In this document: positions 30,270 through 48,252 of the stretch, in pieces
Position numbering within the stretch: position 1 is the first letter of the stretch
Layout of the letters: each line of letters opens with the position of its first letter
IMG/VR virus record: IMGVR_UViG_3300047557_004483
Span: 64,001 to 112,252 of that record
Source: a virus
Strand: one strand, 5' to 3'
Length of the DNA stretch: 48,252 nucleotides
Made by a program: the position numbers and the translations under genes
Notes under the pieces: model-generated
Told to the model about the DNA's origin: nothing
The model's input: the letters and a program-made list of their open reading frames with translations, nothing else
Database searches by the model: none

Positions 30270-33200
30270 TTATGCACATGCCCCAGCATCTGTTAATCCA
30301 CCATTAAGATAATTTTGAGAAAGGTAAGAAGTTGGGTTAATGTATATTATCGAAGCACTAAGTAAGAAATCATCAGGTCCTGTTGAAAGTGTACTGAAGT
30401 CTTTAGAACCATTTGCAGGAATGAACACTTGTGTGAAGTTACCTGGTCCTGTTTCTATAGTTTCATAGTCAATACCAATTTCAATCTGAGTCAAAACGTT
30501 AACTGAGTTTGTTCCATAAGCTCCAGGAGTCGCATCTGCATATCCATTGAAAGTTATCAACCACTCTGAACCATTGAATTGTGGTACAGGTTCAACGCAC
30601 ACACTTATATAGATGTCTAAGAATGGTGTTTGTGTCACTGTAGGAGTAATAGTTGTTGTTGGTGTTATTGTTGGAGTATTAGACCTTGTCGGTGGAGGTG
30701 CCGTTTCGGTAGGTGTGACTGTGGTAGTATTGGTTGGAGTTATCGAAGGAGTAACAGTATTAGTTGGTGTTATTGTAGGAGTTGTTGTTGTGGTAGGTGT
30801 ATTTGTTCTTGTAGGTGGTGGAGCAGTTTCAGTAGGTGTAATACTCGGTGTTATTGTTGGAGTGGCAGTACGAGTTAGAGTTGGTGTTGGTGTATTAGTT
30901 CTTGTAGGGTTAGGGGTTCTTGTATTTGTTGGTGTTATTGTGTTAGTTGGAGTTATTGACGGAGTCGCAGTCCTTGTTGGAGTAATAGTATTAGTTGGAG
31001 TTATTGACGGAGTAATAGTATTTGTTGGAGTAATAGTATTAGTTGGAGTAATAGTATTAGTTGGAGTTATTGACGGAGTAATAGTATTAGTCGGAGTTAT
31101 TGTGTTGGTTGGAGTTATTGAAGGAGTAACTGTATTTGTTGGAGTAATAGTATTAGTTGGAGTAATAGTATTAGTTGGAGTTATTGTGTTGGTTGGAGTT
31201 ATTGAAGGAGTAACTGTATTAGTTGGGGTTATTGTGTTTGTCGGGGTTATTGTGTTGGTTGGAGTTATTGAAGGAGTAACTGTATTAGTTGGAGTAATAG
31301 TATTAGTTGGAGTTATTGATGGTGTCGCAGTCCTTGTTGGCGTAATAGTATTAGTTGGAGTTATTGTGTTGGTTGGAGTTATTGAAGGAGTAACTGTATT
31401 AGTTGGGGTAACTGTATTAGTCGGAGTAATAGTATTCGTAGGTGTTATTGATGGAGTAACTGTATTAGTTGGGGTAACTGTATTAGTCGGAGTAATAGTA
31501 TTCGTAGGTGTTATTGATGGAGTAACTGTATTAGTTGGAGTAATAGTATTAGTTGGAGTTATCGATGGTGTTACACTATTAGTTGGAGTGATTGTGTTAG
31601 TAGGGGTTATAGATGGTGTTAATGTATTAGTTGGAGTTATTGTGTTAGTTGGAGTTATTGTATTTGTTGGTGTAATTGACGGTGTTATTGTATTTGTTGG
31701 TGTAATTGTATTTGTAGGTGTGATAGATGGAGTAAGAGTATTAGTTGGCGTTAAAGTATTGGTTGGTGTAATAGATGGAGTAGTAGTATTCGTTGGGGTT
31801 ATTGTATTTGTAGGAGTTATTGAAGGTGTTGTAGTGTTAGTTGGGGTTATTGTATTTGTTGGAGTTATTGTATTCGTTGGTGTAATTGATGGTGTTATAG
31901 TATTAGTTGGCGTGATGGTATTAGTTGGTGTTATTGATGGAGTGATAGTATTGGTTGGAGTGATGGTATTTGTAGGAGTTATTGAAGGTGTTGTAGTGTT
32001 TGTTGGAGTAGTTGTATTTGTTGGAGTTATTGTATTAGTTGGAGTTATTGAAGGTGTTATTGTATTTGTAGGAGTAATTGTGTTAGTAGGAGTATTAGTA
32101 TTGGTAGGTGTGATAGATGGAGTAATAGTATTTGTTGGTGTTATTGTATTCGTTGGTGTTATGGTGTTGGTTGGAGTTATAGATGGAGTAACTGTATTAG
32201 TTGGGGTTATCGTAGGGGTGTTAGACCTAGTTGGCGGAGGGAATGTCTCAGTCGGCGTATTTGTTACAGTATTGGTTGGAGTTATCGATGGTGTTATTGT
32301 GTTCGTTGGAGTAATAGTGTTAGTTGGAGTTATTGTGTTCGTTGGAGTAATAGTGTTAGTTGGAGTTATTGTGTTCGTTGGAGTAATAGTATTTGTTGGT
32401 GTTATTGATGGTGTGACGCTATTAGTTGGAGTTATTGTATTAGTTGGAGTAATAGTGTTAGTTGGTGTTATTGATGCTGTTACAGTATTGGTTGGAGTAA
32501 TAGTATTTGTCGGTGTGATAGTATTCGTTGGAGTTATCGATGGTGTTATTGTGTTCGTTGGAGTAATAGTGTTAGTTGGAGTTATTGTGTTCGTTGGTGT
32601 AATAGTATTAGTTGGTGTTATTGTGTTAGTTGGTGTAATAGTATTCGTTGGCGTTATTGACGGAGTAATAGTATTAGTTGGTGTTATTGTGTTAGTTGGT
32701 GTAATAGTATTCGTTGGCGTTATTGACGGAGTAATAGTATTAGTTGGTGTTATTGTGTTAGTTGGTGTAATAGTATTCGTTGGTGTTATTGATGGTGTTA
32801 TTGTATTTGTTGGAGTAATAGTGTTAGTTGGAGTTATTGTGTTCGTTGGTGTAATAGTATTAGTTGGTGTTATTGTGTTAGTTGGTGTAATAGTATTCGT
32901 TGGCGTTATTGACGGAGTAATAGTATTAGTTGGTGTTATTGTGTTAGTTGGTGTAATAGTATTCGTTGGCGTTATTGACGGAGTAATAGTATTAGTTGGT
33001 GTTATTGTGTTAGTTGGTGTAATAGTATTCGTTGGTGTTATTGATGGTGTTATTGTATTTGTTGGTGTTATGGTGTTGGTTGGAGTTATAGATGGTGTTA
33101 CACTATTAGTTGGGGTTATCGTAGGGGTGTTAGACCTAGTTGGCGGAGGGAATGTCTCAGTCGGCGTATTTGTTACAGTATTGGTTGGAGTTATCGATGG

Positions 33201-34484
33201 TGTTATTGTGTTCGTTGGAGTAATAGTGTTGGTTGGTGTAATAGTATTAGTCGGAGTTATTGTGTTAGTCGGAGTTATAGATGGTGTAATACTATTAGTT
33301 GGTGTTATTGTGTTAGTAGGTGTTATTGTATTGGTAGGTGTAATTGTGTTAGTGGGTGTTATTGATGGCGTAGCTGTGTTAGTAGGAGTGATTGTGTTGG
33401 TTGGAGTTATCGTATTAGTCGGAGTTATAGTATTAGTCGGAGTTATAGTATTAGTAGGAGTTATAGTATTAGTAGGAGTAAGAGTATTTGTAGAAGTTAC
33501 TGTAGGAGTATTAGACCTAGTTGGTGGAGGGAATGTCTCAGTTGGAGTAATTGTAACAGTAGTTGTTGGTGTTAATGTATTAGTTGGAGTAATTGTGTTG
33601 GTTGGAGTTATTGTGTTGGTTGGTGTTATAGATGGTGTTACTGTATTTGTAGCTGTTATTGTATTTGTAGGTGTTATTGTATTAGTTGGTGTCTGTGTAT
33701 TGGTCGGACTGTTAGTATTAGTTGGGCTTATAGATGGTGTAATTGATAATGTTATTGTTGTAGTAGGTGTTAGAGTTTGGGTGGCGGTAATAGTTGGTGT
33801 TTGAGTAATAGAGGTTGTTGGGGTTTGTGATGGTGTCAAAGTTTGAGTAGGAGTTGCTGTTTGTGGAGGCGTTCCGGTTGGTGAAGGTGTTTGAGTATTT
33901 GTTGTCGTTGGAGTTGGTGATGGTGTTTGTGTTGGACTACTTGTCTGCGTTGGAGTAAGGGTTATAGTGGTTGTTGGTGTTGCAGTATTGGTTGGTGTTA
34001 TTGATGGCGTTACTGTATTAGTTGGGGTTATTGTGTTAGTTGGTGTGATTGTAGGTGTTATTGTATTTGTTGGTGTTGGAGTTCTTGTAAAACAAGGAGG
34101 TAAAGGACTTATCGGTAGTGTTCTTGTAGGAGTTGCAGTATTTGTTGGTGTGACCGGTATTGTGGTGCTTGGACTTGGGGTTATTGTCGGGGTGTTTGTT
34201 GCAGTTACTGACGGTGTTGTTGTCGGAGTATCGAATGGTGTTGCGGTGACAGTTGGTGTCGGCGTCTCTGTTACGTAAACCCATTGCAAAAATTCACAAG
34301 CGTCATTATCTACTATTTTTATTATAAAATTATTGTCAGCATATGGTGGGGGTACTGTGAAAGAAATCGGAAATGTAGTTGCTGAAGTAACAAATACACA
34401 GTTAGCACTAAAAGAATCACAATAGTATATATCTACCGGGGTATTTGCTGTTACTGATTGTATTGTTACTAATTCTGAAGCCAT
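30270..34484 (-). CDS. Giant mucin-like fibre protein with ~1200-residue Thr-Pro stalk, 1404 aa
   Basis: Residues 1-~70 are a small domain ([20 protein letters not shown]...[20 protein letters not shown]) homologous to the whole 74-aa protein encoded just upstream. Residues ~72-1285 are an almost uninterrupted TP stalk with one Cys near residue 130, three [11 protein letters not shown] and two TETAPPPTR cassettes, and a 22-residue higher-order period (three TITPTN plus TITPS). Residues ~1286-1404 form a compact beta-rich C-terminal domain ([27 protein letters not shown]). The ATG at 34484 forms a TAATG overlap with the upstream stop. The ATG at 34517, 11 codons earlier, would overlap the upstream gene further and is less likely. 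Confidence 0.82.
32195..32321 (-). repeat. 127-bp exact dispersed repeat, copy 1
   Basis: Identical to 33104-33230, offset 909 bp (303 codons, in frame). It includes a [11 protein letters not shown] cassette and its flanks. The match ends abruptly on both sides. Confidence 0.9.
32557..33060 (-). repeat. Exact 252-bp tandem duplication in the fibre stalk
   Basis: Positions 32557-32808 and 32809-33060 read identically base for base (84 codons each, in frame). Each copy contains three 66-bp superrepeats plus one 18-bp unit. Sequence just outside differs (gttattgtgttc before copy 1 versus gttattgtattt at its end), which fixes the unit boundaries. No synonymous change has accumulated, implying very recent duplication or ongoing gene conversion. 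Confidence 0.9.
33104..33230 (-). repeat. 127-bp exact dispersed repeat, copy 2
   Basis: Second copy of the segment at 32195-32321, containing the [11 protein letters not shown] cassette. Confidence 0.9.
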
Positions 34485-34708
34485 TAGATTACTGTTGTTA
34501 CTCCTGTTATTGAACAATTGTTAAAATCAATCGCCTTTATCATATATGATGTTCCTGTATTATAAGGTTCTGGTATATCAAACACATAAGGAAATTCTGA
34601 AGCAGTTATAGTATTAATATAAAAACAAGAATCCCCCGTCGGTTGACAAACATAAATATCAAATGGTGTTTGTCCTGTTATATTATTTATTGTTGCCTGT
34701 ATTGCCAT
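34484..34708 (-). CDS. Small fibre-associated protein, stalk-less paralogue of the next fibre's N-terminal domain
   Basis: 74 aa ([62 protein letters not shown]). It aligns by eye with residues 1-65 of the 1404-aa protein: TPxDIYxCD/Q, a second Cys, xFPxxFxxPxPY, xFIIKxxDxxxC. It lacks any TP tract. The start overlaps the upstream fibre stop as TGATG and its stop overlaps the downstream start as TAATG, so three genes form a translationally coupled chain. It could be a capping or docking subunit that co-assembles with the larger fibre (inference), or a remnant of a gene split. Confidence 0.75.
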
Positions 34709-37700
34709 CAGTATTGACTTAATGGTGATTTAGTTACTGTTGATGGTGTTATCGACAAAACAGAGAATACTGTTTTGGTAACAGCCGAACAATTTCCGTC
34801 CAAAGGACATTGCTCTAAATTATAGGAAGTGAAGTTTTGTGTTACAAACGAACTACCAGCAGGTATTGTGATGAAAATTGTTTCATAATTTGTTCCCGAG
34901 CAATCGGTAACTTCTAAACTTACTTGGACAGTTATATCAACCGTAGTTATTGTTTGTGTGCCATCGGAATTGAAATTTGTTACTCTCAGAGTGGTCTCCG
35001 ATTTACTATATCCACCACAAAAGTCTGGTTGTCCTGTAACGAAACCATCATTATTTATCGTAATTTGAGAAGTTGTAGTTGGGATTCCATTGATACATTC
35101 AGAACAATTGGAATAAATCAATGTTCCGATACTTGTAAAATAATTTCCATTCCAACTTGTCGCAACTACATTAATAGGTGGAACATAGCTTGAAACAAAC
35201 GCTCCAAGATATGTCCAACAATTACCCACACTATCTTTGAATCTCTCATTCACTCGTATACTTGGTAATTGTGTTGTTTGAATTATTTGATTATTCAAAT
35301 ATGGATTGATTTGTAGTGGTTGACAACTTTCATAAACATAAACGAAGGTCATAGGACTTGAAGTTAATGTTGGTGTTATTGATGGAGTCGGTGTTATACT
35401 AGCAGTTACCGATGGTGTTGGTGTTACGCTAGCCGTTACCGATGGTGTCACACTTTGTGTAAGTCCCGGTGTCTTAGTTATTGTAGGTGTCACTGAAATT
35501 GATGGAGTAATTGTTGGTGTAATCGTCGGTGTAGGTGTAGTCGTTGTTGTTGGTGTAATTGATGGCGTTGGTGTTGGACTTGGTATATTTGAACATTCTG
35601 CATAAGTACCATAAATTCCAAAAATACTTTGAACAGAGCTGTTCGATGATAGATTGGAATCATTTCTTAAATAAGTTACACATAGATTTTGTCCGTTTAT
35701 TGTTGCTGCTATAGTAATTCCAACAACAATTGGAGTATCATTGAATATTAATGGGTCTGAAGTGTAGTACTCTGTTCCTGTTGACTCATCTAACAATACT
35801 TTTACAGATGCACAAATGAATTGGTTTTGTATAATTTCAAATGTTGCAGAGCCCGAGAAGGTCACGGGAATTGTTGGTGTAATCGTAGGAGTTGGTGTCG
35901 GTGTAACATTTGAACTCGGCGTATAAGCACTTAGAGAAAAATCAATACCAACCGAGTTACAATATTGTCCTGAAGGAGTTGGTGTTGGGGTCAATGTCAT
36001 TGCGCTGAGTGAAAAACCAACAACGTCACAGGATATGGCTGTAGATGGTGTCGGCGTAATCTGACAATCGAAATACGCATTGAAATCGAGAATATCGCAA
36101 TCAACAGGTGGTGTTGGAGGAGGTAAACAAGCTCCAACAGTGAAAACATTTCCGTCTAAGTCAGGACAGGTAGAACGGCAAGGATAAGCCCCCCTGATAA
36201 TACAAGGACCTCCCAAATATGTACTTAAACACCAACTTGTTCCATTGAAGAATATAATTCCGTATTGTGTTCCTCCCCCTTCATAATATGGGTAACAATT
36301 ATAGTAACCTCCGTACCACGTATAATTTCCAGTGAGTGCAGACAAACTATCTAATCCTGTATCTAAACAATAAACAAAATTTTCACATGTAAAAAATGTA
36401 GAATTCGTTGGTGTTGGTGTCGGTGATACTGCCGGTGTAGGTGGCGGAACACAACTTTCACAATTATTCGATATTGGCCCTTGTAAATATGGACCACCAG
36501 GCCCTGAAAATTCTTCGAAGTAATAACATTCTCCGTTATAAACATATGTCCCACCAGGGAATGCGGTATCTTCATCTATCAACGCATAAAAAACAGTGCC
36601 GGTTCCACATTTCAAAAGAAGCGCCGCTCTTCTCCCTACTCTTGGGCAAATCGTTTCCGCACAATCGAAAATTTCCGTAAAAGTAACCCCAACCGCATTG
36701 AATAGAGGGCCGGTATTTGTATTTGCTGTGTATGTTGCACATCCTTCAAACTCAGTGCTTCCCGTTATAAAATATACGGAACCCAACGTCAAAGATTGAA
36801 GTGGTCCTGCAAATCTAAAAATAATTCCACTGTCACAATCAATAAACTGAACAACAATTCCTGGAGGTGCAGGTGTTTGAGTTACAGAAGGAGTAAGTGT
36901 GGGTGTTGTAGTTGGTGTTGATGTAATCGTAGGTGTTGGTGACTCGGTTGGAGTAGATGTTTGAGTAGGTGTCGGTGTTTCAGTATTAGTTGGTGTAATT
37001 GTAGGTGTCGGTGTTTCAGTATTAGTTGGTGTAATTGTAGGTGTCGGTGTTTCAGTATTAGTTGGTGTAATTGTAGGTGTAGGTGTTTCAGTATTAGTTG
37101 GTGTAATTGTAGGTGTAGGTGTTTCAGTATTAGTTGGTGTAATTGTAGGTGTAGGTGTTTCAGTATTAGTTGGTGTTAAAGTATTAGTTGGTGTAATTGT
37201 AGGTGTAGGTGTTTCAGTATTAGTTGGTGTAATTGTAGATGTAGGTGTTTCAGTAGGTGTCGGTGTTTCAGTAGTTGTAGGAGTTTGTGTTGGGGTAATG
37301 GTTGGTGTTTCTGTCAATGTTGGTGTTGGTGTTTGTGAGGCTCCTTCGCTTGGGGTATTGGTCTGAGTTGGTGTATTAGTTGGAGTTTCAGTTGGAGTTG
37401 GAGTTTCAGTTGAAGTTATAGTTGGGGTTGGGGTTGGTGTGAGTGATAATGGTCCACAATAGCTTCCACAAATACTAACGTCCGCAATACTCCAACTTAT
37501 ACAATCAGTGGTTTGTCCAGGAGAACAGTAAATATCATTAGTATATAGAGAATCCTCAATTGCACAATTAATGATTGACTGTTGTCCACCTGGTCCTCCT
37601 GGTGCGGAATGAGAGTTTAATACACCATCACAATCGAGATAGTAAACAGTTTTAGTTGAACTATAAAAGTTTATAACCTCGTACTGTCTACAAGAAACAC

Positions 37701-38064
37701 ATCCTGTTGATGGTGATATTGTTACAGTGGGTGTTGGTGTTGGTGTTGGGGTCTCACCAGGTCCTCCTCCTCCTGTTGTTGAGGTAGGCGTTTGGGTGGG
37801 TGTTGAAGTTGCTTGAGGTGTTGGTGTCACACACCCAAAACACGGCTCATTACTTTGTGTTACGTTGATACAATCAATGGTTGTATTATCACAAGCATTC
37901 CCGAAAAAAAAGATACTGTTTTCCGCAGCACAAGGAATATTAGTTTGTTGTCCATTACCCGGAGCAGATATTGAAGATGGGGTGTCATCACATGCAGTAT
38001 AAAAAATAGTAACCGCACTTGAATAATAATTGACTATTTCATATGTATAACAACATAACGCCAT
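34708..38064 (-). CDS. Cys-rich modular fibre/adhesin with TP linkers, 1118 aa
   Basis: Two N-terminal paralogous Cys modules (residues ~3-75, [23 protein letters not shown]; and ~125-200, [23 protein letters not shown]) are joined by a TP/Gly linker. A ~185-residue TP stalk (about 209-395) carries a 36-bp tandem repeat. More Cys-rich modules follow (about 396-830), including three short C(D/N)xxxF-SLSA-type repeats. A second TP linker at ~828-908 precedes a C-terminal beta-rich domain ending [13 protein letters not shown]. Over forty cysteines is high for a virion fibre and suggests disulphide or metal stabilisation outside the cell. Start ATG at 38064, with a candidate promoter element 17 nt upstream. 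Confidence 0.78.
36880..37440 (-). repeat. Thr-Pro stalk of the 1118-aa fibre
   Basis: About 560 bp of [12 protein letters not shown]-type units plus one [17 protein letters not shown] cassette that is also found in the 1917-aa protein, linking the two stalks by shared sequence. Confidence 0.88.
36967..37236 (-). repeat. 36-bp tandem repeat, seven units
   Basis: Units start at 36967, 37003, 37039, 37075, 37111, 37147 and 37201. The first three are identical. Units 4, 5 and 7 differ from them by one synonymous base. Unit 6 carries an 18-bp insertion (an extra TLTPTN). They encode [12 protein letters not shown]. Confidence 0.92.
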
Positions 38065-38172: not shown

Positions 38173-40047
38173 TTAATAGATAAAGTAAGGTGGGGGGTTT
38201 ACCCACGAAGTATTACCAGCAATTCCACTCGCACCAGAAACTTTTTGCGATAATTTGTTAGATGGTTCTCCTTCAGTTGAAACGTAAATTACTTGGAAAC
38301 CTAAATTATATATTAACAAATCATAGGTCATACCATATACATCACCCAAGTAACTGAACATTCCCCTTATATTGTTTAAGTCTGTGTAACTTGTTCCAGT
38401 ATATCCACTGAGATTAAGTTCAGTTATTGTATTTCCTGATGCATCAAACAAAGTTGCATAACTTATACTATTTCCTGTATTAATATATGTCAAAGCATAT
38501 TGGTTTGTTATTGGGTCATACAAAACATCCCCATTTACGATACAGTTAGGACATTCTCCCGATAAAGAAAATACCAATTCTGAGGTAGAGGCCGATAAGT
38601 TCAATCTGTAAACACTATTTGTTGCAATTAGTAGTGTATTATCATCAACAGCAGTCATGCCTGAGCCTACTAAACTTGGGAAAGAATATGTTGTATCAAA
38701 AGTTACCGAGAACGGTACCTTAACATAATCATAAGAATAGATGTAACCCAAAGTATCATTAATGAAGATTTTATTATCAGTAATACCAATATTCAAACTT
38801 GTTCCTGATGTTGCGGCACTGAACAAATAACCGATAAGATTTGTATCAGGATTGTATCTATAAATTGAGTTATCAGTACTATCGATGAACATAGTATCCC
38901 CACTATTGAAAATAGGAATTGATGTTGGAGTTGGTGTGATTGTTGGAGTAGGCGTTAAAGTTAATGTAGGTGTAATTGTTGGAGTAACAGTAGGGGTTAT
39001 TGATGGTGTTGGAGTTGGAGTTGGTGGTGTGACTGAGAATCTTGGTGACTGAGCAACCAAATTCAAGAATATTTCTTGAATGTCCAAAGCAAAATCATAA
39101 ACATAAACATTCGATATTAACCCGTCGAAATATTCAGAAGAGGAAATATTTCCAACGCCCACAGTTAAGTTGGAAATAGTTGTGACATTGTGAGATGACC
39201 CTGGTTGGTCTGAGCCAACTAAGATTCCATCCAAATATATTTTTCTATCAGTTCCGTCGAAAGTTGCAACTATATTGTGCCATGCACCAGTACTAACAGC
39301 AACTGTCGCTGTTAAATCATTACCTTGCCACGAATTAACTATTCCTGTTGAAGTTAGTTTAAGGATGTTGGCCTGATTTGTACCAGAATAGTTACCCCAC
39401 GAAATAATTACCTTATTACCTAATGTAGTCGGTTTTACCCAAGTTGTGATTGTATATTCATCATTACCATTCGGTATATCAGTAACCGCCGAAAAACTGA
39501 CATAAGAGTTTCCTGACGATGAAAATGAAAGTGAACCACTTGCATCTGAATTGTAAGATACGTTATTTAATAATCCGTGATTGTTTTTACCTGATAAGTC
39601 GTCCCATTTTGTTCCAACTAATGGATAGGATAATGTATAGCCAGCATCCAAATATAAAGTTAATCCTTCAGATACTAATGTAGAACAGAATATATTTTGA
39701 ATACCATATTTACCCTCCGATTCTAACCATCCCACAGCATCTTCTATAGTTGTAAATCGAGGTTGCCCAAATCTATCTGGTAAACCGTTTATAAGTCCAA
39801 CAAGTAAAGAATCTGTCTTAGCTGAAGTACCCCAAAAAATTGGGTAGGAATTCGCCTCAGTCGTCAACCCTTGGGAATAACTATCTGAGACTATTACATA
39901 ACCTATTATTGGTGTATAAGCGTACCATCCCGTTTTCACAGTAGGTCCATAGTCTACGTCAGCAACACCGTAAGACATCTGATTTTTCTTCAAAGAGAAA
40001 TTCAGTGTCGTACCACTATTATAATGAACAGGATTGGTTGCTGGCAT
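38173..40047 (-). CDS. Virion fibre protein with LamG-like lectin domain, 624 aa
   Basis: Likely receptor-binding fibre. Residues 1-125 form an N-terminal part (FSLKKNQMSYGVADVDYGPTVKTGWYAYTP...) that may attach to the tail. Residues ~128-338 are a clear concanavalin/LamG sandwich: LYLDAGYTLSYP, W-DLSGKNNHG, TITTWVKPT, GAWHNIVATFDGTDRKIYLDG, FDGLISNVYVYDFALD. A short TP hinge lies at ~341-379. The C-terminal ~245 residues repeat IYRYN / YSYDYV / VYRLN-type strands consistent with a small beta-propeller. A LamG domain on a phage fibre points to carbohydrate binding on the host surface. It starts by TAATG overlap with the 60-aa upstream gene. Confidence 0.85.
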   Translation of the reverse strand: MPATNPVHYNSGTTLNFSLKKNQMSYGVADVDYGPTVKTGWYAYTPIIGYVIVSDSYSQGLTTEANSYPIFWGTSAKTDSLLVGLINGLPDRFGQPRFTTIEDAVGWLESEGKYGIQNIFCSTLVSEGLTLYLDAGYTLSYPLVGTKWDDLSGKNNHGLLNNVSYNSDASGSLSFSSSGNSYVSFSAVTDIPNGNDEYTITTWVKPTTLGNKVIISWGNYSGTNQANILKLTSTGIVNSWQGNDLTATVAVSTGAWHNIVATFDGTDRKIYLDGILVGSDQPGSSHNVTTISNLTVGVGNISSSEYFDGLISNVYVYDFALDIQEIFLNLVAQSPRFSVTPPTPTPTPSITPTVTPTITPTLTLTPTPTITPTPTSIPIFNSGDTMFIDSTDNSIYRYNPDTNLIGYLFSAATSGTSLNIGITDNKIFINDTLGYIYSYDYVKVPFSVTFDTTYSFPSLVGSGMTAVDDNTLLIATNSVYRLNLSASTSELVFSLSGECPNCIVNGDVLYDPITNQYALTYINTGNSISYATLFDASGNTITELNLSGYTGTSYTDLNNIRGMFSYLGDVYGMTYDLLIYNLGFQVIYVSTEGEPSNKLSQKVSGASGIAGNTSWVNPPPYFIY

Positions 40048-40269: not shown

Positions 40270-41112
40270 TTATGTCCTTGATATCATTGAAATTCCATCT
40301 GATGAATGATGTGTGAAGTTATTCTCTTTTATCCAATTAGTAATTAACTCTTTATCTTCTTCACTCAAATTGAAATCCTCATATATTATAAAGTTAGGAA
40401 TATTTTCTTTTGTCAAACTCAAAATAAGTTTTACATCCAATCCTTCAACATCCATGTGAATCCAATCTAAATTCCCACCAATAGATTTAATTAACTCATT
40501 TAATGATATAGAGTTTTTAACTGATGAATTAACTTCTTCCGTTTCCCAACTTCTTATCACCCTTTCAACTACGGAGTTTGTGTACCCCCTACCTCCCTCA
40601 AAAAATTCTACCTCACCTCCGTTAGGTGTAATAATTTCTTTTATTAAAGTAATTCCTGTTCTACCTTTGTAATTTTTTTCTAATTTTTCATATTGTTTGT
40701 CTGAAGCCTCAACCAAATAAACATCACTCATAAAATTCCTAACCAAAGGAACCCATTCGCCAAATTCACCATCATGTGTTCCTATCGCCAATCCTTTTGG
40801 GGTTTTCCCTGAATTAACTAATCCTTTACAGTACAACCATAAAGATTTATAAAATATGGAACCATGTTGAAAAATATCCCAATGATACTTAGTAACAAAT
40901 TTATTTTGATTATCTAATATGATGACATCATAGATTTCGTTTTGTCCAAATTTTGCCCACATGTTTTCATACAGCTTGGTAGACCAAACAACCTCTTTTG
41001 AAATTGCTTGTTTAATCTGAATCGTTAAGGGTAATTGGTCTTCTTTAAATACTTTTTTAAGTTCTCCTGTGGTTACTACTATTTTTCCACCACTATAGTC
41101 AATATTAATCAT
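40270..41112 (-). CDS. FkbM-family SAM-dependent methyltransferase, 280 aa
   Basis: Probably O-methylates a sugar. Seen: GLAIGTHDGEFGEWVPL (about residues 95-111), which fits the SAM-binding motif I of FkbM/Methyltransf_21 proteins, a motif II acidic strand VYLVEASDKQYEKLEKNY, and the diagnostic post-motif DWIHMDVEGLDVKLIL (about residues 218-233), followed by PNFIIYEDFNLS. Its start overlaps the acetyltransferase stop by 4 nt (ATGA), so it is coupled to a glycan-modifying gene. Role inferred: capping of glycans built by the glycosyltransferases of this island. Confidence 0.88.
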   Translation of the reverse strand: MINIDYSGGKIVVTTGELKKVFKEDQLPLTIQIKQAISKEVVWSTKLYENMWAKFGQNEIYDVIILDNQNKFVTKYHWDIFQHGSIFYKSLWLYCKGLVNSGKTPKGLAIGTHDGEFGEWVPLVRNFMSDVYLVEASDKQYEKLEKNYKGRTGITLIKEIITPNGGEVEFFEGGRGYTNSVVERVIRSWETEEVNSSVKNSISLNELIKSIGGNLDWIHMDVEGLDVKLILSLTKENIPNFIIYEDFNLSEEDKELITNWIKENNFTHHSSDGISMISRT

Positions 41113-41654
41113 AAATGCTTATCAATAAATTCATCTATTTTATCTGACCACATTAACATAGCTTCAGTTTTGATTCTATCTTCAGTCCAATCCCACCATT
41201 TGATTTTTAATAATGAGTCAATCTGTCTTTCATTGAATCTGTACTTAACTATCTTAGCCGGATTTCCAACAACAATTGCGTATGGTGGTATATCTTTAGT
41301 GACAACCGAATTTGCACCAACAACACTTCCGTTATGGATTTTTACTCCTGACATTATTGTAGATTTTGCACCAATCCATACATCGTTTTCAATTATAATA
41401 TCACCCTTACATGAAGGATGTCCCATATTCATATGTAAGTTTGCTATTTCAGGAGTAACGGGTCCCCATAATTGTGAGCTTGTTGTTATCCAATCAGGTC
41501 TGTGATTTGCATGTAAGAAAAAATTACAATCCCTACCTATAGAGTTGTATTTACCAAGATGAATGTGAAAATCATCACTCCAACTTATAATATTAACATT
41601 TCTGTCGAAGTAAGTTCCTCTGTCAGCGTGCCAAAGATGTAAATTTTCAATCAT
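41109..41654 (-). CDS. Left-handed beta-helix (hexapeptide) acetyltransferase, CatB/XAT-like, 181 aa
   Basis: Transfers an acetyl group, most likely to a sugar hydroxyl or amine. The hexapeptide repeat helix (IHLGKYNSIGRDCNFFLHANHRPDW) includes the catalytic-type His in NHRPDW. A GDIIIENDVWIGAKSTIMSGVKIHNGSVVGANSVVTKDIPPYAIVVGNPAKIVKYRF block is typical of the family, as is the short C-terminal WWDW helix of CatB/WcaF-like enzymes. Length 181 aa fits the family. The gene lies 1 nt after the GT-like protein gene. In a phage, this is best explained as glycan decoration. Confidence 0.9.
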   Translation of the reverse strand: MIENLHLWHADRGTYFDRNVNIISWSDDFHIHLGKYNSIGRDCNFFLHANHRPDWITTSSQLWGPVTPEIANLHMNMGHPSCKGDIIIENDVWIGAKSTIMSGVKIHNGSVVGANSVVTKDIPPYAIVVGNPAKIVKYRFNERQIDSLLKIKWWDWTEDRIKTEAMLMWSDKIDEFIDKHL

Positions 41655-41655
41655 T

Positions 41656-42582
41656 TTAAATCTTTTCTAAAGTATTATGTTTAATTTTTTCCAAAATTTG
41701 AGAAATGTCATGAACTTCATTTTGATATTTTAGTTTGACTTTTTTTAAGTTAATTTTGTTGAACCCTAAATTAATTATATCTAAATTATTTATAGTATAC
41801 TCCGTCTCTTTATCTTGGATAATCAAAGAAACTTTTTGTTCATTCATATTATCGTAAAATAATAATTTAATTGGTTCGAGTGTCTCATCGTTTTTTTCAA
41901 TAAAAAATTTCAAACCCTTTATTGGTGAAAAATTAAAAAAATCGTGTTCCTGATAATAGTAAATTTCATCTTCAACAGGAGTTTGTTCAATAGTATAATT
42001 TAATATTTTTTCTTTATTGTGTAACCAAACGAAAGCGTCCGCACCTCTGAGTTCGATATAACTTTCTTTAGTTATTTTTGACGCAAAATTTTGTAGATTT
42101 TCCTTGTTGAAAATCATGTAATGAAGCCCGACATCCCAAATCTTATTTTGTCTTTTTGACGGATAAACTGAGTTTGTTTTATCCGAATAAAATCCAGAGA
42201 TGACATTATCGTCAATTTTCAAATCGTATATGATGTGAAAGAACTGTTCATATCCTAAATTGAGTGAAATTTCACTAAGTTGTTTCACTTGATAAAGTCC
42301 TGCAAATCCATAATCAGGATTAGTGGCTGCAATTTTATAGTTTGACATTTCGGAAGATAGTATTCTCCAATGATACATTGACCTCTCGGGCCATTCTAAC
42401 ACCAAATTATCTTTAGTCAGAAAAAAATAATCACATAAGTCAACTATTTGTTTTTCCAAATAAAAGGGACTAATTAAAACCACGTCAATATTGTGACTTT
42501 TGATTGTTCTAATATTTTTTTCTAATACTTCAAGTTTTTTTTTGGTATCACAAAACGAACTTATTAGGGCTACTTTCCTCAT
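41656..42582 (-). CDS. Glycosyltransferase-like protein of unknown family, 308 aa
   Basis: The N-terminal MRKVALISSFCDTKKKLEVLEKNIRTIKSHNIDVVLISPF has the form of a GT-A Rossmann entry. An acidic motif in FFHIIYDLKIDDN (about residues 114-126) sits where a DxD-type motif would. This protein aligns by eye with the 320-aa protein at 43199-44161 (LIxSxxxxxKKExxLxxxxxxxxxxxxDIxxxxxxF, similar central motif), so the two are paralogues. No Pfam family is recognised with certainty. The rest is helical and aromatic-rich. Probably part of the glycan island. Confidence 0.6.
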   Translation of the reverse strand: MRKVALISSFCDTKKKLEVLEKNIRTIKSHNIDVVLISPFYLEKQIVDLCDYFFLTKDNLVLEWPERSMYHWRILSSEMSNYKIAATNPDYGFAGLYQVKQLSEISLNLGYEQFFHIIYDLKIDDNVISGFYSDKTNSVYPSKRQNKIWDVGLHYMIFNKENLQNFASKITKESYIELRGADAFVWLHNKEKILNYTIEQTPVEDEIYYYQEHDFFNFSPIKGLKFFIEKNDETLEPIKLLFYDNMNEQKVSLIIQDKETEYTINNLDIINLGFNKINLKKVKLKYQNEVHDISQILEKIKHNTLEKI

Positions 42583-42587
42583 TTATA

Positions 42588-43178
42588 CTAATTTTGATTT
42601 TCAATTATACCAATACCTCCCCAATGATTATTACTCATAAACCAATATTTGTTGACATCCATATCATTCCAAAAATTACTAACAAAACAAGCTGCCTTTG
42701 CGTGGAACTCAGATTCTTTTATATCATGAAATCCAATCAACCCACCATTTTTAACAAACTCCTTATACATGAAATAATCTAATTTTACCCCGTTTTCTGA
42801 ATGGTCTCCATCAATAAATAAAAAATCTAACTTTTTATCTCCGAGTATATTTTTTATTTGACGATGAGTTTTTAATGAATGAGAATCCCCGTTTATTATA
42901 TAAACCTCGTCCCCCATTTCTTTAAGTCTTAAGTCTCTTTTATCCACATCAAAATTTGTTGTTCCCCATGGACCATGAGCCCAGTCCAAAGAAATTTTAA
43001 TCCCTTCTGTCCCAGTAATTCTACTCCAACAAATAAAAGTACCCCCTTCATTTGTCCCAATCTCCATAAAATTTTTTATTTTTTTAGTTTTCAAAAAATC
43101 TAAACAACTCAAAATTTCATATCTGTTTTGAGCCATCCCCAATTGGTAAGCCTCTTCTATAATATATAAATTATCCAT
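42588..43178 (-). CDS. Class I SAM-dependent methyltransferase, CmcI/Methyltransf_24-like, 196 aa
   Basis: SAM-binding motif I is in FMEIGTNEGGTFICWSRI (about residues 37-54). A DxxxGDSH region (EVYIINGDSHSLKTHRQI) and the DFLFIDGDHSENGVKLDYFMY strand are the metal/substrate strand of the CmcI and Methyltransf_24 groups. GGLIGFHDIKES follows. Likely O-methylation of a glycan or another small acceptor. It sits between the two GT-like paralogues with short gaps, so it is co-transcribed with them. Confidence 0.85.
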   Translation of the reverse strand: MDNLYIIEEAYQLGMAQNRYEILSCLDFLKTKKIKNFMEIGTNEGGTFICWSRITGTEGIKISLDWAHGPWGTTNFDVDKRDLRLKEMGDEVYIINGDSHSLKTHRQIKNILGDKKLDFLFIDGDHSENGVKLDYFMYKEFVKNGGLIGFHDIKESEFHAKAACFVSNFWNDMDVNKYWFMSNNHWGGIGIIENQN

Positions 43179-43198: not shown

Positions 43199-44161
43199 TT
43201 ATTCGGAGTTTTTGAATTTTATAAAATTTTTACGAGTAAAGTTTTCATACCCTATCTCATTGAAATCCCAATAGTGAGAAATTTCGTTGTTAATTATTAA
43301 CGTTAAATTATCTATTTTATCATATGATTCTAATTCTCTGAAAATCCAAATTTTTGGTTTAATTTCTATACTTATTAAACTTTTTTTATTTATGATTAAG
43401 CTTACTTCGAATGTTTTGTCTGAATCACTATTCCAACCGAAAAAAAACATTTTCTTACTTGATTCGTGATATATTGGTACCATCCAACGATTCAATGCAA
43501 TTTCATCATGTAACCCAACAAGAATATTGTGTTTTTTCAATTGCTCTTTATCTTTACATAATACAGGTTGCGATTTATCAATTAAACTTTTTTCATATTC
43601 TTCGGAAAGTTTAGAAGTATTTCCATTAAAAAAATCTAATATTTTTTTATCTGATAGTTCAAACCACTCGTTTGAAATTTTATTCAAATTAAAAGAAATC
43701 GGTGCCGAGGGTAAGGGGAATAATTGTGTAATATAATATATTATATTGTAACTTTCCAGTAAATTGGAGTTTTCTTGTAATTCAAGAAGATTGTTAATTC
43801 TAGAATCATATTCAAAAAAATGAACCTTTTCATAACCTAAACTTTTAGCATAAGATAACCCATGTAATAATAGTTTTATCATGGCAAATGCATGATTCCC
43901 TTTGAACGTTTCGGTGCTAGATATCATGAAACCCTCGTCTTTAAAAACCATTACACTTTTTTGATTTATGTCTGTTAGAATTTTATTTTCGGAATCACAA
44001 ATAACAAAGTTTGATTTTTCAAAAATATCTTTTGGAATGAAAATATGTGTGGATATCATTATATCATACTCCTTATCAATCACATCATTCACTAACTCTC
44101 TTAACATCTGTTCTTTTTTGCTATTTGATGCATGAGAAGTTATTAAAATTAATTCTCTCAT
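43199..44161 (-). CDS. Glycosyltransferase-like protein of unknown family, 320 aa
   Basis: Paralogue of the 308-aa protein at 41656. It begins MRELILITSHASNSKKEQMLRELVNDVIDKEYDIMISTHIFIPKDIFEKSNFVICD, has the central aromatic-acidic motif KVHFFEYDSRINNLLELQ (about residues 116-133) that parallels FFHIIYDLKID of its partner, and has a long beta-rich C-terminal part (MFFFGWNSDSDKTFEVSLIINKK). It is the first gene of the minus-strand glycan operon and is divergent from the GT4-TibC fusion gene. Function as a glycosyltransferase is inferred from motif shape and context. Confidence 0.6.
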   Translation of the reverse strand: MRELILITSHASNSKKEQMLRELVNDVIDKEYDIMISTHIFIPKDIFEKSNFVICDSENKILTDINQKSVMVFKDEGFMISSTETFKGNHAFAMIKLLLHGLSYAKSLGYEKVHFFEYDSRINNLLELQENSNLLESYNIIYYITQLFPLPSAPISFNLNKISNEWFELSDKKILDFFNGNTSKLSEEYEKSLIDKSQPVLCKDKEQLKKHNILVGLHDEIALNRWMVPIYHESSKKMFFFGWNSDSDKTFEVSLIINKKSLISIEIKPKIWIFRELESYDKIDNLTLIINNEISHYWDFNEIGYENFTRKNFIKFKNSE

Positions 44162-44265: not shown

Positions 44266-46560
44266 ATGTTTATCCCTAAAATATACGCTCACGGTTCTTA
44301 TATAGGAAATACTGGATATAATCATCATACAAGGGATTTTTTCAGAAAATTAAGTTTACATTGTAATATCAAGGTAAGAAACTTTACTGTGGGTTCTACA
44401 TGGGATGGTTATAATTTATACCCCCACGATAACGAACCATACATAAATGATGTAGACAAATCCATCTTATACCAACAAATACTTTGGTCAAAAGACAAAA
44501 CTAGAGAAAATTTTTCTATATACCCGTCAATAGATAAAGAATTCTCACACGATGTTAATTTAGTTTTATGTGAAACAAATCATTACATATTCTACGATGA
44601 TTATGTGGGACCAAAAATTGCATATAACGTTTGGGAGACAACTTTACAACCTGAACAATTCTTCAATAGATTAAAAGAGTTTGATGAACTTTGGGTTCCT
44701 TCAAAATGGCAAAGAGATTGTACAATAGCACAAGGTTATGACCCCAATAAAATAAAAGTAGTTCCTGAAGGAGTTGATGACAAAGTTTTCTTCCCAAACC
44801 CACAAGTTAAAAACCAGCTTACGTCAGATGGTAGGTTTAAGTTTTTCTTAGCAGGAAGGTGGGACTATAGAAAATCAATAAAAGAAATTATAGAAACATT
44901 TATCAATACGTTCGATAAGGATGAACCTGTAGATTTATTAGTTTCAGTAGACAATCCGTTTTCGAATGATGGAATGAAAACCACAGAAGAAAGATTAAAA
45001 TTCTACGGGTTGGAGGATGATAGAATCAAAGTTTTACATTTCCCTTCGAGAACAGATTACGTAGACATATTGAAAAGTTGTCATTGTTTTGTTTCTTGTG
45101 CAAGGTCTGAGGGTTGGAATCTTCCTTTAATTGAATCTATGGCTTGCGGTACGCCTTCAATTTATTCGAATTGTTCAGGTCAGTTAGAATTTGCTGAAGG
45201 AAAAGGTATACCTGTCAATATTTTAGGTGAACAACCAGCATCTAATGGAACTTACAATCACTTCAATGAAATGGTTGGAAACTACTACGAACCTGACTTC
45301 ATAGACCTATCTTTCAAAATGAGAATGGTTTATAAAAACCACAGTGAGTATAAACAAAAAGCAATCAAAGAATCTGAAACCATTCGTGAGAATTTCAATT
45401 GGGATAAAATTGGAAAGTTGGGTTATGAAACTATCAAAGAATTTGTGTCAAAATCAAAATACAAACCAAAGAAAAAAATGGAAACAAATAAAATTCAAAT
45501 AAATTATATAGATGGTCCAAAAGTTGAAATTCTGGGACCTAACGAAAATTTGTATAAGGTAGAGTTTATTAATAAAACCACAGGAGAAGTTTTACACTCT
45601 GAAACAATTAAAAATAACATGTGGGTTGCTTGCGGTAAAAAATATTTCATACCTTGGGTCATAAAAATAAATGATGTAGTTTATGATGAATTCAATTTGG
45701 AAAATAAAAGAGTTTTGATATCGATAGAATCCAAATCAATCGGTGACACTTTATCTTGGGTTCCATATGCTGTTGAGTTTCAGAAGAAATATAAGTGTCA
45801 CGTTATCTTATCTTCTTTCCATAACCAATGGTTTAAAAATACAGAACCTTATAAAGACATAGAATTTATTGAACCGGGTCAATCCACGCCTTGCTTTGTT
45901 GTGTATAGAATTGGGTGGTTCAAAAATAATGAAGGTAAATTTAAAAACACAAATTTAAATCCAACTCAAGTTAATACAATACCTCTACAAAAAACTGCTA
46001 CTGATATTTTAGGATTGGATTACATCGAAGTTAACCATGGTATCAAATTCAAACCAAAAAAGAAACCAATAGATAGTAAATACATAGTCATTGGTCCCAT
46101 ATCAACCGCAGGTTTGAAAGAATGGCCCTATGAAAATTGGTCAGAATTATCAAAATTATTAAATAACGAAGGTTATATAGTTGTCTCACTAACAAAAGAC
46201 AAATTCAATTTACCTAATGTTGCAAATTATGTTACAAGTGATTGGGATGAAATTTTCAATTTTTTACATCATTCAGAATTTTTTATAGGTTTGAGTTCAG
46301 GTTTATCTTGGGTCAATTGGGCATTAGGTAAACATACAGTAATGATATCAGGTTTTAGTTCTGATGACCATGAATTCCAAAATAATGTTACGAGAATATC
46401 AAATCAGGTGTGTATTAAGTGTTGGAATGACCCCGTATTTACATTTGATGGAGGTGATTGGAATTGGTGTCCGGTATATAAAGGGACAGAAAGACAACAC
46501 ATATGTCAAAAATCAATAACAGTAAGTCAAGTATTTAATAAAATTAAAAACCTTTTATAA
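44266..46560 (+). CDS. Two-domain glycosyltransferase: GT4 domain fused to TibC/Aah-like protein O-heptosyltransferase, 764 aa
   Basis: Residues 1-~400 are a GT-B family 4-like transferase (VPEGVDDKVFFP, FFLAGRWDYRKSI, then the E-x7-E motif in SEGWNLPLIESMACGTPSI). Residues ~405-764 match the TibC/Aah autotransporter strand-loop-strand O-heptosyltransferase family: INYIDGPKVEI, NNMWVACGKKY, SIGDTLSWVPYAVEF, PLQKTATDILGLDY, LSSGLSWVNWALGK, and a four-Cys metal-finger Cys716, Cys719, Cys735, Cys747 (CIKCW ... WCPVYKGTERQHIC). TibC-type enzymes transfer heptose to Ser/Thr of repetitive adhesins. Met405 lies exactly at the domain boundary. One of only two complete plus-strand genes. The donor sugar is unknown. 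Confidence 0.85.
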   Translation: MFIPKIYAHGSYIGNTGYNHHTRDFFRKLSLHCNIKVRNFTVGSTWDGYNLYPHDNEPYINDVDKSILYQQILWSKDKTRENFSIYPSIDKEFSHDVNLVLCETNHYIFYDDYVGPKIAYNVWETTLQPEQFFNRLKEFDELWVPSKWQRDCTIAQGYDPNKIKVVPEGVDDKVFFPNPQVKNQLTSDGRFKFFLAGRWDYRKSIKEIIETFINTFDKDEPVDLLVSVDNPFSNDGMKTTEERLKFYGLEDDRIKVLHFPSRTDYVDILKSCHCFVSCARSEGWNLPLIESMACGTPSIYSNCSGQLEFAEGKGIPVNILGEQPASNGTYNHFNEMVGNYYEPDFIDLSFKMRMVYKNHSEYKQKAIKESETIRENFNWDKIGKLGYETIKEFVSKSKYKPKKKMETNKIQINYIDGPKVEILGPNENLYKVEFINKTTGEVLHSETIKNNMWVACGKKYFIPWVIKINDVVYDEFNLENKRVLISIESKSIGDTLSWVPYAVEFQKKYKCHVILSSFHNQWFKNTEPYKDIEFIEPGQSTPCFVVYRIGWFKNNEGKFKNTNLNPTQVNTIPLQKTATDILGLDYIEVNHGIKFKPKKKPIDSKYIVIGPISTAGLKEWPYENWSELSKLLNNEGYIVVSLTKDKFNLPNVANYVTSDWDEIFNFLHHSEFFIGLSSGLSWVNWALGKHTVMISGFSSDDHEFQNNVTRISNQVCIKCWNDPVFTFDGGDWNWCPVYKGTERQHICQKSITVSQVFNKIKNLL

Positions 46561-46928
46561 TGGAAATACAAGTTGGACTTGGAGAAATTATTGATAAATT
46601 ATCAATATTAATGATTAAAAAAGAAAACGTCGTTGACCCTATTAAATTGAATAATATAAATAAAGAATTAGAATACCTAAACCGAATTGTTGAAAGTCTA
46701 CAAATTGATGCTGAGGATATTTTTTTATTGAAAGAAATTAATAAAAAATTGTGGCAAATTGAAGATGATATCCGTAACAAAGAAAGAAATAAGGTATTTG
46801 ACGATGAATTTATATATCTCGCAAGACAGGTGTATATCACTAACGATTTAAGAGCTGATGTGAAAAGGAAAATAAATGAAAAATATTCCTCAGACTTTAT
46901 TGAGGAAAAATCGTATTCTGAATATTAA
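46560..46928 (+). CDS. DUF6165-like protein, 122 aa
   Basis: [39 protein letters not shown]...[19 protein letters not shown]...[26 protein letters not shown] is the full-length pattern of DUF6165: GELIDKLxIL, DxxKLxNIxxEL, NxxLWxIEDDIR, FxxLAxxVYxTND. The family is commonly encoded next to glycosyltransferases. The start forms a TAATG overlap with the GT fusion, so it is translationally coupled to it, which supports a partner role. Molecular function unknown. Its stop codon overlaps that of the convergent collagen-like fibre gene. Confidence 0.85.
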
Positions 46929-48252
46929 TCAGTTGGATATTTGTCAACATATTCAATATCGAACCTTTCGATATCTTTTCTTTCTGCTAAAATTATAAAA
47001 TAAGTATTTATAACTCCAGTTTCTGATTCGATTAAGATTTTATTATCTAAAATACTTCTTACATAGTGTACTGTAGGAGTCCCTTTGGGCGTCAATTGAA
47101 CTGTCATTGAGTCTTCATATACCAAATTAACCCAATAATCTGGTAGATATATTAAATTTTCAGTAGTATACCCTCTTAGATAAACGCCATGTTCAGGCCC
47201 TTCGAGCACACCATATCTGAGTCTGAACCCTTTTTTTGTTGGGTGTATTATATCGAAGGATTTTGTTGTTGCAACTATATCTCCAACCACAGTTAATACT
47301 GTTCCATCGAATGTCATGTTTGGTTCCCCGTTCAAAGTACCAGGTGTATTACTACCCGTAATTACTCTATTATCAGCGTTGTTATTTATAGTCGCAGTTC
47401 CAGGAGCACCTTGAGCACCTTGAGGTCCTTGTGGACCAACTGCTCCTTGCGCACCTTGACCTCCTTGAGCACCCTGAGGACCTTTAGCACCTGTAGGTCC
47501 AATAGCTCCTTGAGCTCCTTGTCCTCCTTGAGCACCTGTAGGTCCAATAGCTCCTTGAGCTCCTTGTCCTCCTTGAGCACCTGTAGGTCCAATTGCACCT
47601 TGAGCACCTTGAGGTCCTTGTGGACCAACTGCTCCTTGAGCACCTTGTCCTCCTTGAGCACCCTGGGGACCTTTAGCACCTGTAGGTCCAATAGCTCCTT
47701 GAGCTCCTTGTCCTCCTTGAGCACCTGTAGGTCCAATAGCTCCTTGAGCACCTTGTCCTCCTTGAGCACCTGTAGGTCCAATAGCTCCTTGAGCTCCTTG
47801 TCCTCCTTGAGCACCTGTAGGTCCAATTGCGCCTTGAGCACCTTGAGGTCCTTGTGGACCAACTGCTCCTTGAGCACCCTGAGGACCTTTAGCACCTGTA
47901 GGTCCAATAGCACCTTGAGCACCTTGAGGTCCTTGTGGACCAACTGCTCCTTGAGCACCTTGTCCTCCTTGAGCACCTGTAGGTCCAATAGCACCTTGAG
48001 CACCTTGAGGTCCTTGTGGACCAACTGCTCCTTGAGCACCTTGACCTCCTTGAGCACCTGTAGGTCCAATAGCACCTTGAGCACCTTGAGGTCCTTGTGG
48101 ACCAACTGCTCCTTGAGCACCTTGTCCTCCTTGAGCACCTGTAGGTCCAATAGCACCTTGAGCACCTTGAGGTCCTTGTGGACCAACTGCTCCTTGAGCA
48201 CCTTGACCTCCTTGAGCACCTGTAGGTCCAATAGCACCTTGAGCACCTTGAG
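46925..48252 (-). CDS. Collagen-like (Gly-X-Y) tail fibre protein, C-terminal part, cut by the right edge
   Basis: The real minus-strand frame is open from the edge (48252) to TAA at 46925, 441 codons, with no stop. The first ~285 residues are Gly-X-Y triplets ([15 protein letters not shown]..., GAVGPQGPQ). A spacer ([41 protein letters not shown]) follows. A C-terminal domain ([31 protein letters not shown]...LPDYWVNLV) resembles the end domain of T4-like cyanophage fibres. It lacks an obvious S74 autoprotease dyad. Triple-helical collagen stalks are common in phage fibres. The 5' end lies outside the window. A frame starting 1-2 bases away also reads open through the repeats but is not the gene. 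The stop shares TTAA with the convergent plus-strand gene. Confidence 0.85.
47399..48252 (-). repeat. Collagen-type tandem repeat, 81-bp unit (27 residues)
   Basis: Successive units are offset by exactly 81 bp over the right end (for example the caatagcacc mark at 47986, 48067, 48148 and 48229). Further left the unit is partly deleted or rearranged. It encodes [18 protein letters not shown]-type triplets and is cut by the window edge. Confidence 0.93.

Follow-up and report, generated by a model that had tools for sequence, protein, structure and literature searches.

TibC and Aah belong to the family TIGR04414, whose name and known function, to our knowledge, refer only to virulence enzymes that modify autotransporters. 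BclA is a collagen-like spore glycoprotein which is O-glycosylated at GPT triplets, and a worm cuticle collagen is stabilised by glycosylated threonine. The residue roles of TibC used in this study (catalytic base, contacts to sugar and adenine, thumb) are taken from PMC4358343. R286 touches the adenine, and TibC lost all or most of its activity when this residue was changed to Ala; the dodecamer requires a beta-hairpin thumb whose tip carries two hydrophobic residues (PMC4358343). Aah accepts both heptose isomers. In mycobacteriophages, phage-encoded transferases decorate virion proteins, namely capsid and tail tube subunits, according to the account of Freeman et al. (2023) cited in PMC12619734.

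Here, we analyzed a window of 48,252 nucleotides of DNA from an aquatic bacterial virus (IMG/VR record IMGVR_UViG_3300047557_004483, positions 64,001 to 112,252), in which a GT4 domain is fused to a TibC-family domain (Table 1). This protein resembles TibC and Aah in its profile match, its full-domain fold, the barrel in the model, the four cysteines and four active-site residues. It differs in being fused to GT4, in three features of the TibC half described below and in its location in a phage genome. Moreover, no NCBIfam match to the strand-loop-strand repeats of autotransporters was found in six large proteins of the window and one of the sister contig. Like BclA, the locus would involve an O-linked sugar on Thr of a collagen-like repeat, but BclA is modified by different transferases, its repeat is proline-rich and it does not come from a virus. 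With the mycobacteriophages the locus would share phage-encoded transferases acting on virion proteins. In the account cited above capsid and tail tube are glycosylated, whereas a fibre of the G-[ST]-S or collagen-like type is the candidate acceptor here. Actinophages matching the fusion gave GT4-like matches only.

Table 1. Fusion gene, its domains and surrounding features (positions in the window).
Feature	Position	Strand	Evidence or remarks
GT4-TibC fusion glycosyltransferase	44266..46560	+	764 aa, ATG start
GT4 (retaining GT-B) domain, residues 1-398	44266..45460	+	PF00534; Foldseek MshA 3c4q, PBCV GT 3oy2
TIGR04414 (Aah/TibC) domain, residues 408-762	45487..46551	+	profile match, 4rb4 fold match
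Predicted TibC-type N-terminal beta-barrel, residues 409-480	45490..45705	+	PF21129 E 1.9e-4 (below cut-off); beta strands in model
Asp494 codon, equivalent of TibC catalytic base Asp110	45745..45747	+	alignment; role from eLife PMC4358343
Putative iron-finger region, Cys716/719/735/747	46411..46506	+	alignment to TibC
DUF6165 protein, 122 aa	46560..46928	+	PF19662 31.8 bits, cut-off 27
Collagen-like tail fibre protein, GAQ/GPT repeats	46925..48250	-	PHROG tail fiber; cut by contig end
GT-A-like sugar transferase, unannotated	43199..44161	-	AF2 pLDDT 91, pTM 0.86; Foldseek
Methyltransferase (Methyltransf_24)	42588..43178	-	PF13578 47 bits
Protein distantly related to 43199-44161, GT-A-like as judged from the alignment	41656..42582	-	shared invariant Y and YD
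Hexapeptide-repeat acetyltransferase	41109..41654	-	PF00132; CatB/Vat similarity far below cut-offs
FkbM methyltransferase with TibC-barrel-like N-terminal domain	40270..41112	-	PF05050 23.5 bits
Thr/Pro-rich repeat proteins, alternative acceptors	30270-34517, 34708-38064, 38173-40047	-	sequence

TIGR04414 aligns with residues 408-762 at 233.5 bits (curated cut-off 200), and a sequence search matched the C-terminal part to the TibC structures 4rap/4rb4 with an E value of 4e-39. The profile assignment is specific, since ordinary GT9 relatives in 369 genomes from the class of a TibC-bearing bacterium reach at most about 35 bits; just two genes in these genomes exceed the cut-off. The GT4 profile PF00534 matches residues 185-309 with 50.8 bits (cut-off 26.4), and the GT4 motif E282-x7-E290 is invariant in 20 of 20 aligned homologs. 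An AlphaFold2 model of the fusion, with 20 relatives as input, reached a mean pLDDT of 82.7 and a pTM of 0.54, which makes the placement of one half relative to the other uncertain. In a Foldseek search with this model TibC ranked first (4rb4, TM 0.79 of the target, E 2.6e-25), followed by GT4 enzymes such as MshA; a GT-B fold is predicted for both halves, with a TibC match over the full domain. The barrel profile PF21129 scored 21.9 bits against a cut-off of 27, yet the model aligns with TibC across 378-382 columns. The identity of the domains as GT4 and TibC-family is near certain. The sequence-only reading, which had expected such a fusion with a TibC-family domain in residues 405-764 and a SIGDTLSWVPY block (residues 491-501), is borne out in these points.

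By alignment, D110, T226, K230 and W305 of TibC correspond to D494, T614, K618 and W682 of the phage fusion. Over 54 TibC domains W305 is invariant, while D110, K230 and the four cysteines are nearly invariant and T226 is likewise present in almost all; the D110 position holds Asp in 51 domains and is gapped in the other three, which are short copies. Cys716/719/735/747, in which a four-Cys iron finger had been recognised before, pair one to one with Cys339/342/358/370 of TibC, iron binding itself being putative. The iron-finger cysteines do not align in two further GT4-TibC proteins (L505 and L241), which keep D110, T226, K230 and W305.

Three features set the phage fusion apart from TibC. 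R286 is replaced by I663, and Arg occupies this position in only 10 of the 54 domains; P300 is replaced by Ser, as in Aah. At the thumb tip (F265/V266), nearly all phage members of the 54-domain comparison have a gap or unrelated residues, although one alignment puts N651/V652 of the fusion opposite. With these thumb residues absent, a TibC-like oligomer is not supported. The loss of R286 and of the thumb indicates that substrates are handled differently than in TibC. Of 29 long records, one (G096) has the ADP-heptose synthase domain TIGR02199 above its cut-off and another (LR756504) has GmhA; both carry solo TibC-like genes. A profile scan for TIGR02199 and GmhA found neither on the contig of the window. 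Because R286 is lost and the tested ADP-heptose genes are missing from the contig, the donor of the TibC half is not established as ADP-heptose and may be a different one. Of the earlier designation as an O-heptosyltransferase, membership in TIGR04414 therefore stands, but the heptosyl part is uncertain.

The linker between the two halves (residues 391-408) is the least conserved stretch, with 27% identity. Met405, which had been proposed as an internal start producing the second enzyme alone, has no counterpart in the aligned relatives; in three of these the linker contains a Met at another position. As this residue is unique to the sequence and the linker poorly conserved, the internal start was rejected. 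A short second TibC-like gene (292-297 aa) is located directly downstream of the fusion in six loci (L007, L021, L022, L023, L029 and L032). These copies have no barrel and begin near the catalytic Asp block. They were considered as products of internal starts and ruled out, since they form a separate deep clade in the tree.

Near full-length relatives of the fusion are encoded on 31 viral contigs (57-100% identity). An alignment scan of viral contigs with the TibC domain revealed at least 562 relatives. At the best 80 of these loci, fusions to GT4 account for 74 ORFs, and what remains are truncated or split genes and second small copies; as the ranking follows similarity to the fusion of the window, this proportion is not general. 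The fusion is an old, widespread and recurrent architecture, present in dozens of aquatic phage contigs. The sequence-only reading had noted neither this nor the link with G-[ST]-S repeat fibre genes described below. In Microcystis phage Mel-JY01, GT4 and TibC form the opposite ends of a protein of 1227 aa, whose middle segments resemble, by eye, the separate 43199-44161 and methyltransferase proteins of the window (L033 insert). Methyltransferase, PIG-L or GT32 modules are added in some relatives: an FkbM module lies inside the fusion of L174, a PIG-L deacetylase module inside those of L190, L208 and L236, and L499 combines FkbM, a GT32-type module, GT4 and TibC in one protein of 1454 aa. Fused PIG-L or methyltransferase modules fit with a sequential glycan pathway, and the PIG-L members would fit an N-acetylhexosamine which is added by GT4 and then deacetylated. 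The well-supported branches of a tree of 54 TibC domains require at least three changes of the long GT4 partner, and at least four changes of a short, divergent GT4 partner are likewise forced, which shows that GT4 partners were repeatedly gained, lost or exchanged.

In related phages, the fusion genes adjoin genes for tail sheath, tail tube and baseplate hub. A scan of a bacterial and archaeal genome collection gave six TibC-domain relatives. One of them (L238) is a fused gene beside tail sheath and tube genes and clearly belongs to a phage, and solo TibC-like forms occur in two bacterial MAGs. Among annotated phages, no relative of the window was found at the DNA level. The locus L512:1187-5314 (G078) encodes a GT4-TibC protein of 1375 aa with an intein in the GT4 half (splicing and LAGLIDADG matches). 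In L029:8775-11074 the fusion is split into two ORFs of 250 and 473 aa by a frameshift or a sequencing error.

Collagen-like genes were found in 22 of 34 fusion loci compared to 6 of 120 control loci, and in 21 of 23 against 3 of 22 long records. Collagen-like repeats in general were dropped as the partner since none of 45 classical GPQ collagen records has TIGR04414, and the association was narrowed to G-[ST]-S repeats. The collagen-like repeats of the fusion loci are mostly GSSGTSGSS, with Pro at about 5% of X positions and less than 1% of Y positions. In the forward direction, G-[ST]-S repeats occur in 16 of 32 fusion loci and in none of 120 random viral loci; the other half of the fusion loci has no such repeat in the examined flank, some flanks being short and some containing GPT/GTT collagen instead. 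For the reciprocal test, the sole criterion for choosing viral contigs was a degenerate DNA pattern encoding G-T-S/G-S-S repeats, and those that were long and truly repetitive were retained. Among the matches listed, 20 of 50 such records carried TIGR04414; of the 19 with a length of at least 60 kb, 13 did. Many of the 30 repeat-bearing records without TIGR04414 are fragments. The proportion of 20/50 is significant against the GPQ set (Fisher P 3e-7) and against 48 viral records chosen by a random 15-mer, none of which has TIGR04414 (P 2e-7). The GT2 family shows no such bias (11 of 50 G-[ST]-S records, 11 of 45 GPQ records).

The 20 positive records comprise 14 verified GT4 fusions (in one of them GT4 falls just short of the cut-off), four solo genes and two candidates which have the right length for a fusion. 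In 13 of the 20 the repeat gene is located at most 4.4 kb from the TibC gene, where about five would be expected under uniform placement; as both genes are found in variable tail modules, some closeness is to be expected. Three bacterial solo TibC-like genes (L239, L240, L545), none of them chosen for repeats, have G-[ST]-S repeat ORFs nearby as well. The genomic linkage of TIGR04414 with G-[ST]-S repeats is specific, although it can reflect a common phage lineage, which the controls do not fully remove.

A phage O-glycosylation system which acts on the phage's own repeat fibres is the best reading of these results and probably the correct one. The G-[ST]-S repeats of these fibres are likely, though by no means certain, acceptors, judged from genomic association. 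The fusion would be a soluble, two-headed protein O-glycosyltransferase of a tailed phage, used during virion production. Its TibC-family half would place the first sugar onto Ser/Thr of the low-complexity Gly-[Thr/Ser]-Ser repeats of collagen-like fibres and the GT4 half the next sugar, and the neighbouring GT-A-like transferases, methyltransferases and acetyltransferase would complete the glycan. The proline-poor repeat fibre would thereby be made soluble or stable, or be masked. We infer the acceptor, the donor sugars and the order of TibC initiation and GT4 extension; the coupling of initiation with elongation in one enzyme, as suggested before, is plausible. As a possible but doubtful extension, TibC-family enzymes may glycosylate Gly-[Thr/Ser]-Ser repeat proteins in general, both in phages and in bacteria, the O-linked sugar taking the stabilising part that falls to proline/hydroxyproline in ordinary collagen. 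Triple-helix folding of proline-poor phage fibres would then require prior glycosylation by GT4-TibC machines, which were assembled several times.

It is unlikely that the order is reversed, with GT4 initiating and TibC extending, or that the halves work independently or on different proteins. The GT4 partner type does vary along the TibC tree, the loss of R286 means that the TibC half may take a different donor, and lone phage GT4 proteins occur (phrog_2170). However, the characterised TibC and Aah act directly on protein (PMC4358343), and the bacterial solo TibC-like genes lie beside the same G-[ST]-S repeats with no fused GT4.

The phage itself encodes several candidate acceptors. The fibre next to the fusion consists mostly of GAQ/GPQ with some GPT and few Thr. 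The contig L002 represents the same phage (13,987-base overlap with two mismatches) and runs on into a second collagen-like gene, which has 198 consecutive G-[ST]-S triplets just past the end of the window. About 20 kb of Thr/Pro-rich repeat proteins are encoded within 16077-40047 on the minus strand; the 38173-40047 protein has a LamG-type lectin domain (PF13385). Long mucin-like Thr/Pro-rich repeats thus lie close to the cluster, and it could be argued that the main acceptors are these virion proteins at 30-40 kb, or the GPT triplets of classical collagen fibres, and not G-[ST]-S. Stretches rich in Thr/Pro occur in 6 of 34 fusion loci against 1 of 120 controls, and some fusion loci have only GPT/GTT-rich collagen. 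We regard this as quite unlikely, since Thr/Pro-rich proteins are present in only a minority of fusion loci and TIGR04414 is missing from the GPQ collagen records.

Glycosylation of the phage's own fibres must also be weighed against an action on the host. Glycosyltransferases near tail fibres of aquatic phages have been proposed to act on the host surface (PMC7029224), so that the enzyme would alter LPS, capsule or O-chain during infection and exclude competing phages. GT9 is the family of the LPS heptosyltransferases (PF01075) and the phage has UDP-galactopyranose mutase and GT2 genes. This is nevertheless improbable: the domain belongs to the protein-modifying TIGR04414 subfamily and is not WaaC/F-like, and surface remodelling offers no obvious reason for a link which is specific to G-[ST]-S genes and absent in other collagen phages of equal GT2 content. 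Glycosylation of phage DNA, a role usually proposed for phage glycosyltransferases (PMC12619734), is extremely unlikely for a protein-modifying subfamily whose gene adjoins fibre and tail genes and for which profile scans show no relationship to known DNA glucosyltransferases.

TibC-like phage proteins as such are not new. A fold search also detected the TibC-like domain in A0A6J5SVC1, annotated in UniProt as 'Glycosyltransferase Aah/TibC', and in A0A6J5SUQ0 (924 and 936 aa, uncultured Caudovirales phage). These are annotations only; our literature search found no description of their fusion, recurrence or acceptor, no paper tying TibC or a heptosyltransferase to phage fibres, and no report of a recurring fusion of GT4 with TibC or of its specific tie to G-[ST]-S fibres. 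TIGR04414 now emerges as an enzyme that is widespread in phages and joined to a second transferase, and a reciprocal test with controls links it to G-[ST]-S fibre proteins. This link allows a concrete acceptor motif to be predicted for many phage glycosyltransferases and suggests a route to stability for a proline-poor collagen-like fibre. Virion fibre glycosylation in aquatic phages becomes testable in a named phage, Mel-JY01.

Several neighbours of the fusion gene may contribute to the glycan. The N-terminal domain of the FkbM protein matches the TibC barrel in hhalign with a probability of 90 and an E value of 1.8e-6, a score that 0 of 60 column shuffles reached. This suggests that the barrel common to both is a shared module for docking or substrate binding. 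In the C-terminus of the 43199-44161 family, such a barrel was considered and rejected, as hhalign covered 13 columns only with a score within the shuffle range. The top Foldseek matches of the 43199-44161 model are GT-A sugar transferases with modest scores, and a C-terminal beta domain is predicted in addition. The family of this protein and the 41656-42582 protein has no Pfam or NCBIfam name, and many relatives are found in fusion loci. A UDP-galactopyranose mutase gene and two GT2-type genes are located on the same contig (G000:C1:19026-22511), a hint of galactofuranose in the phage glycan. The ATG of the DUF6165 gene overlaps the stop codon of the fusion (TAATG), and DUF6165 homologs also lie near the fusion in L022 and L029.
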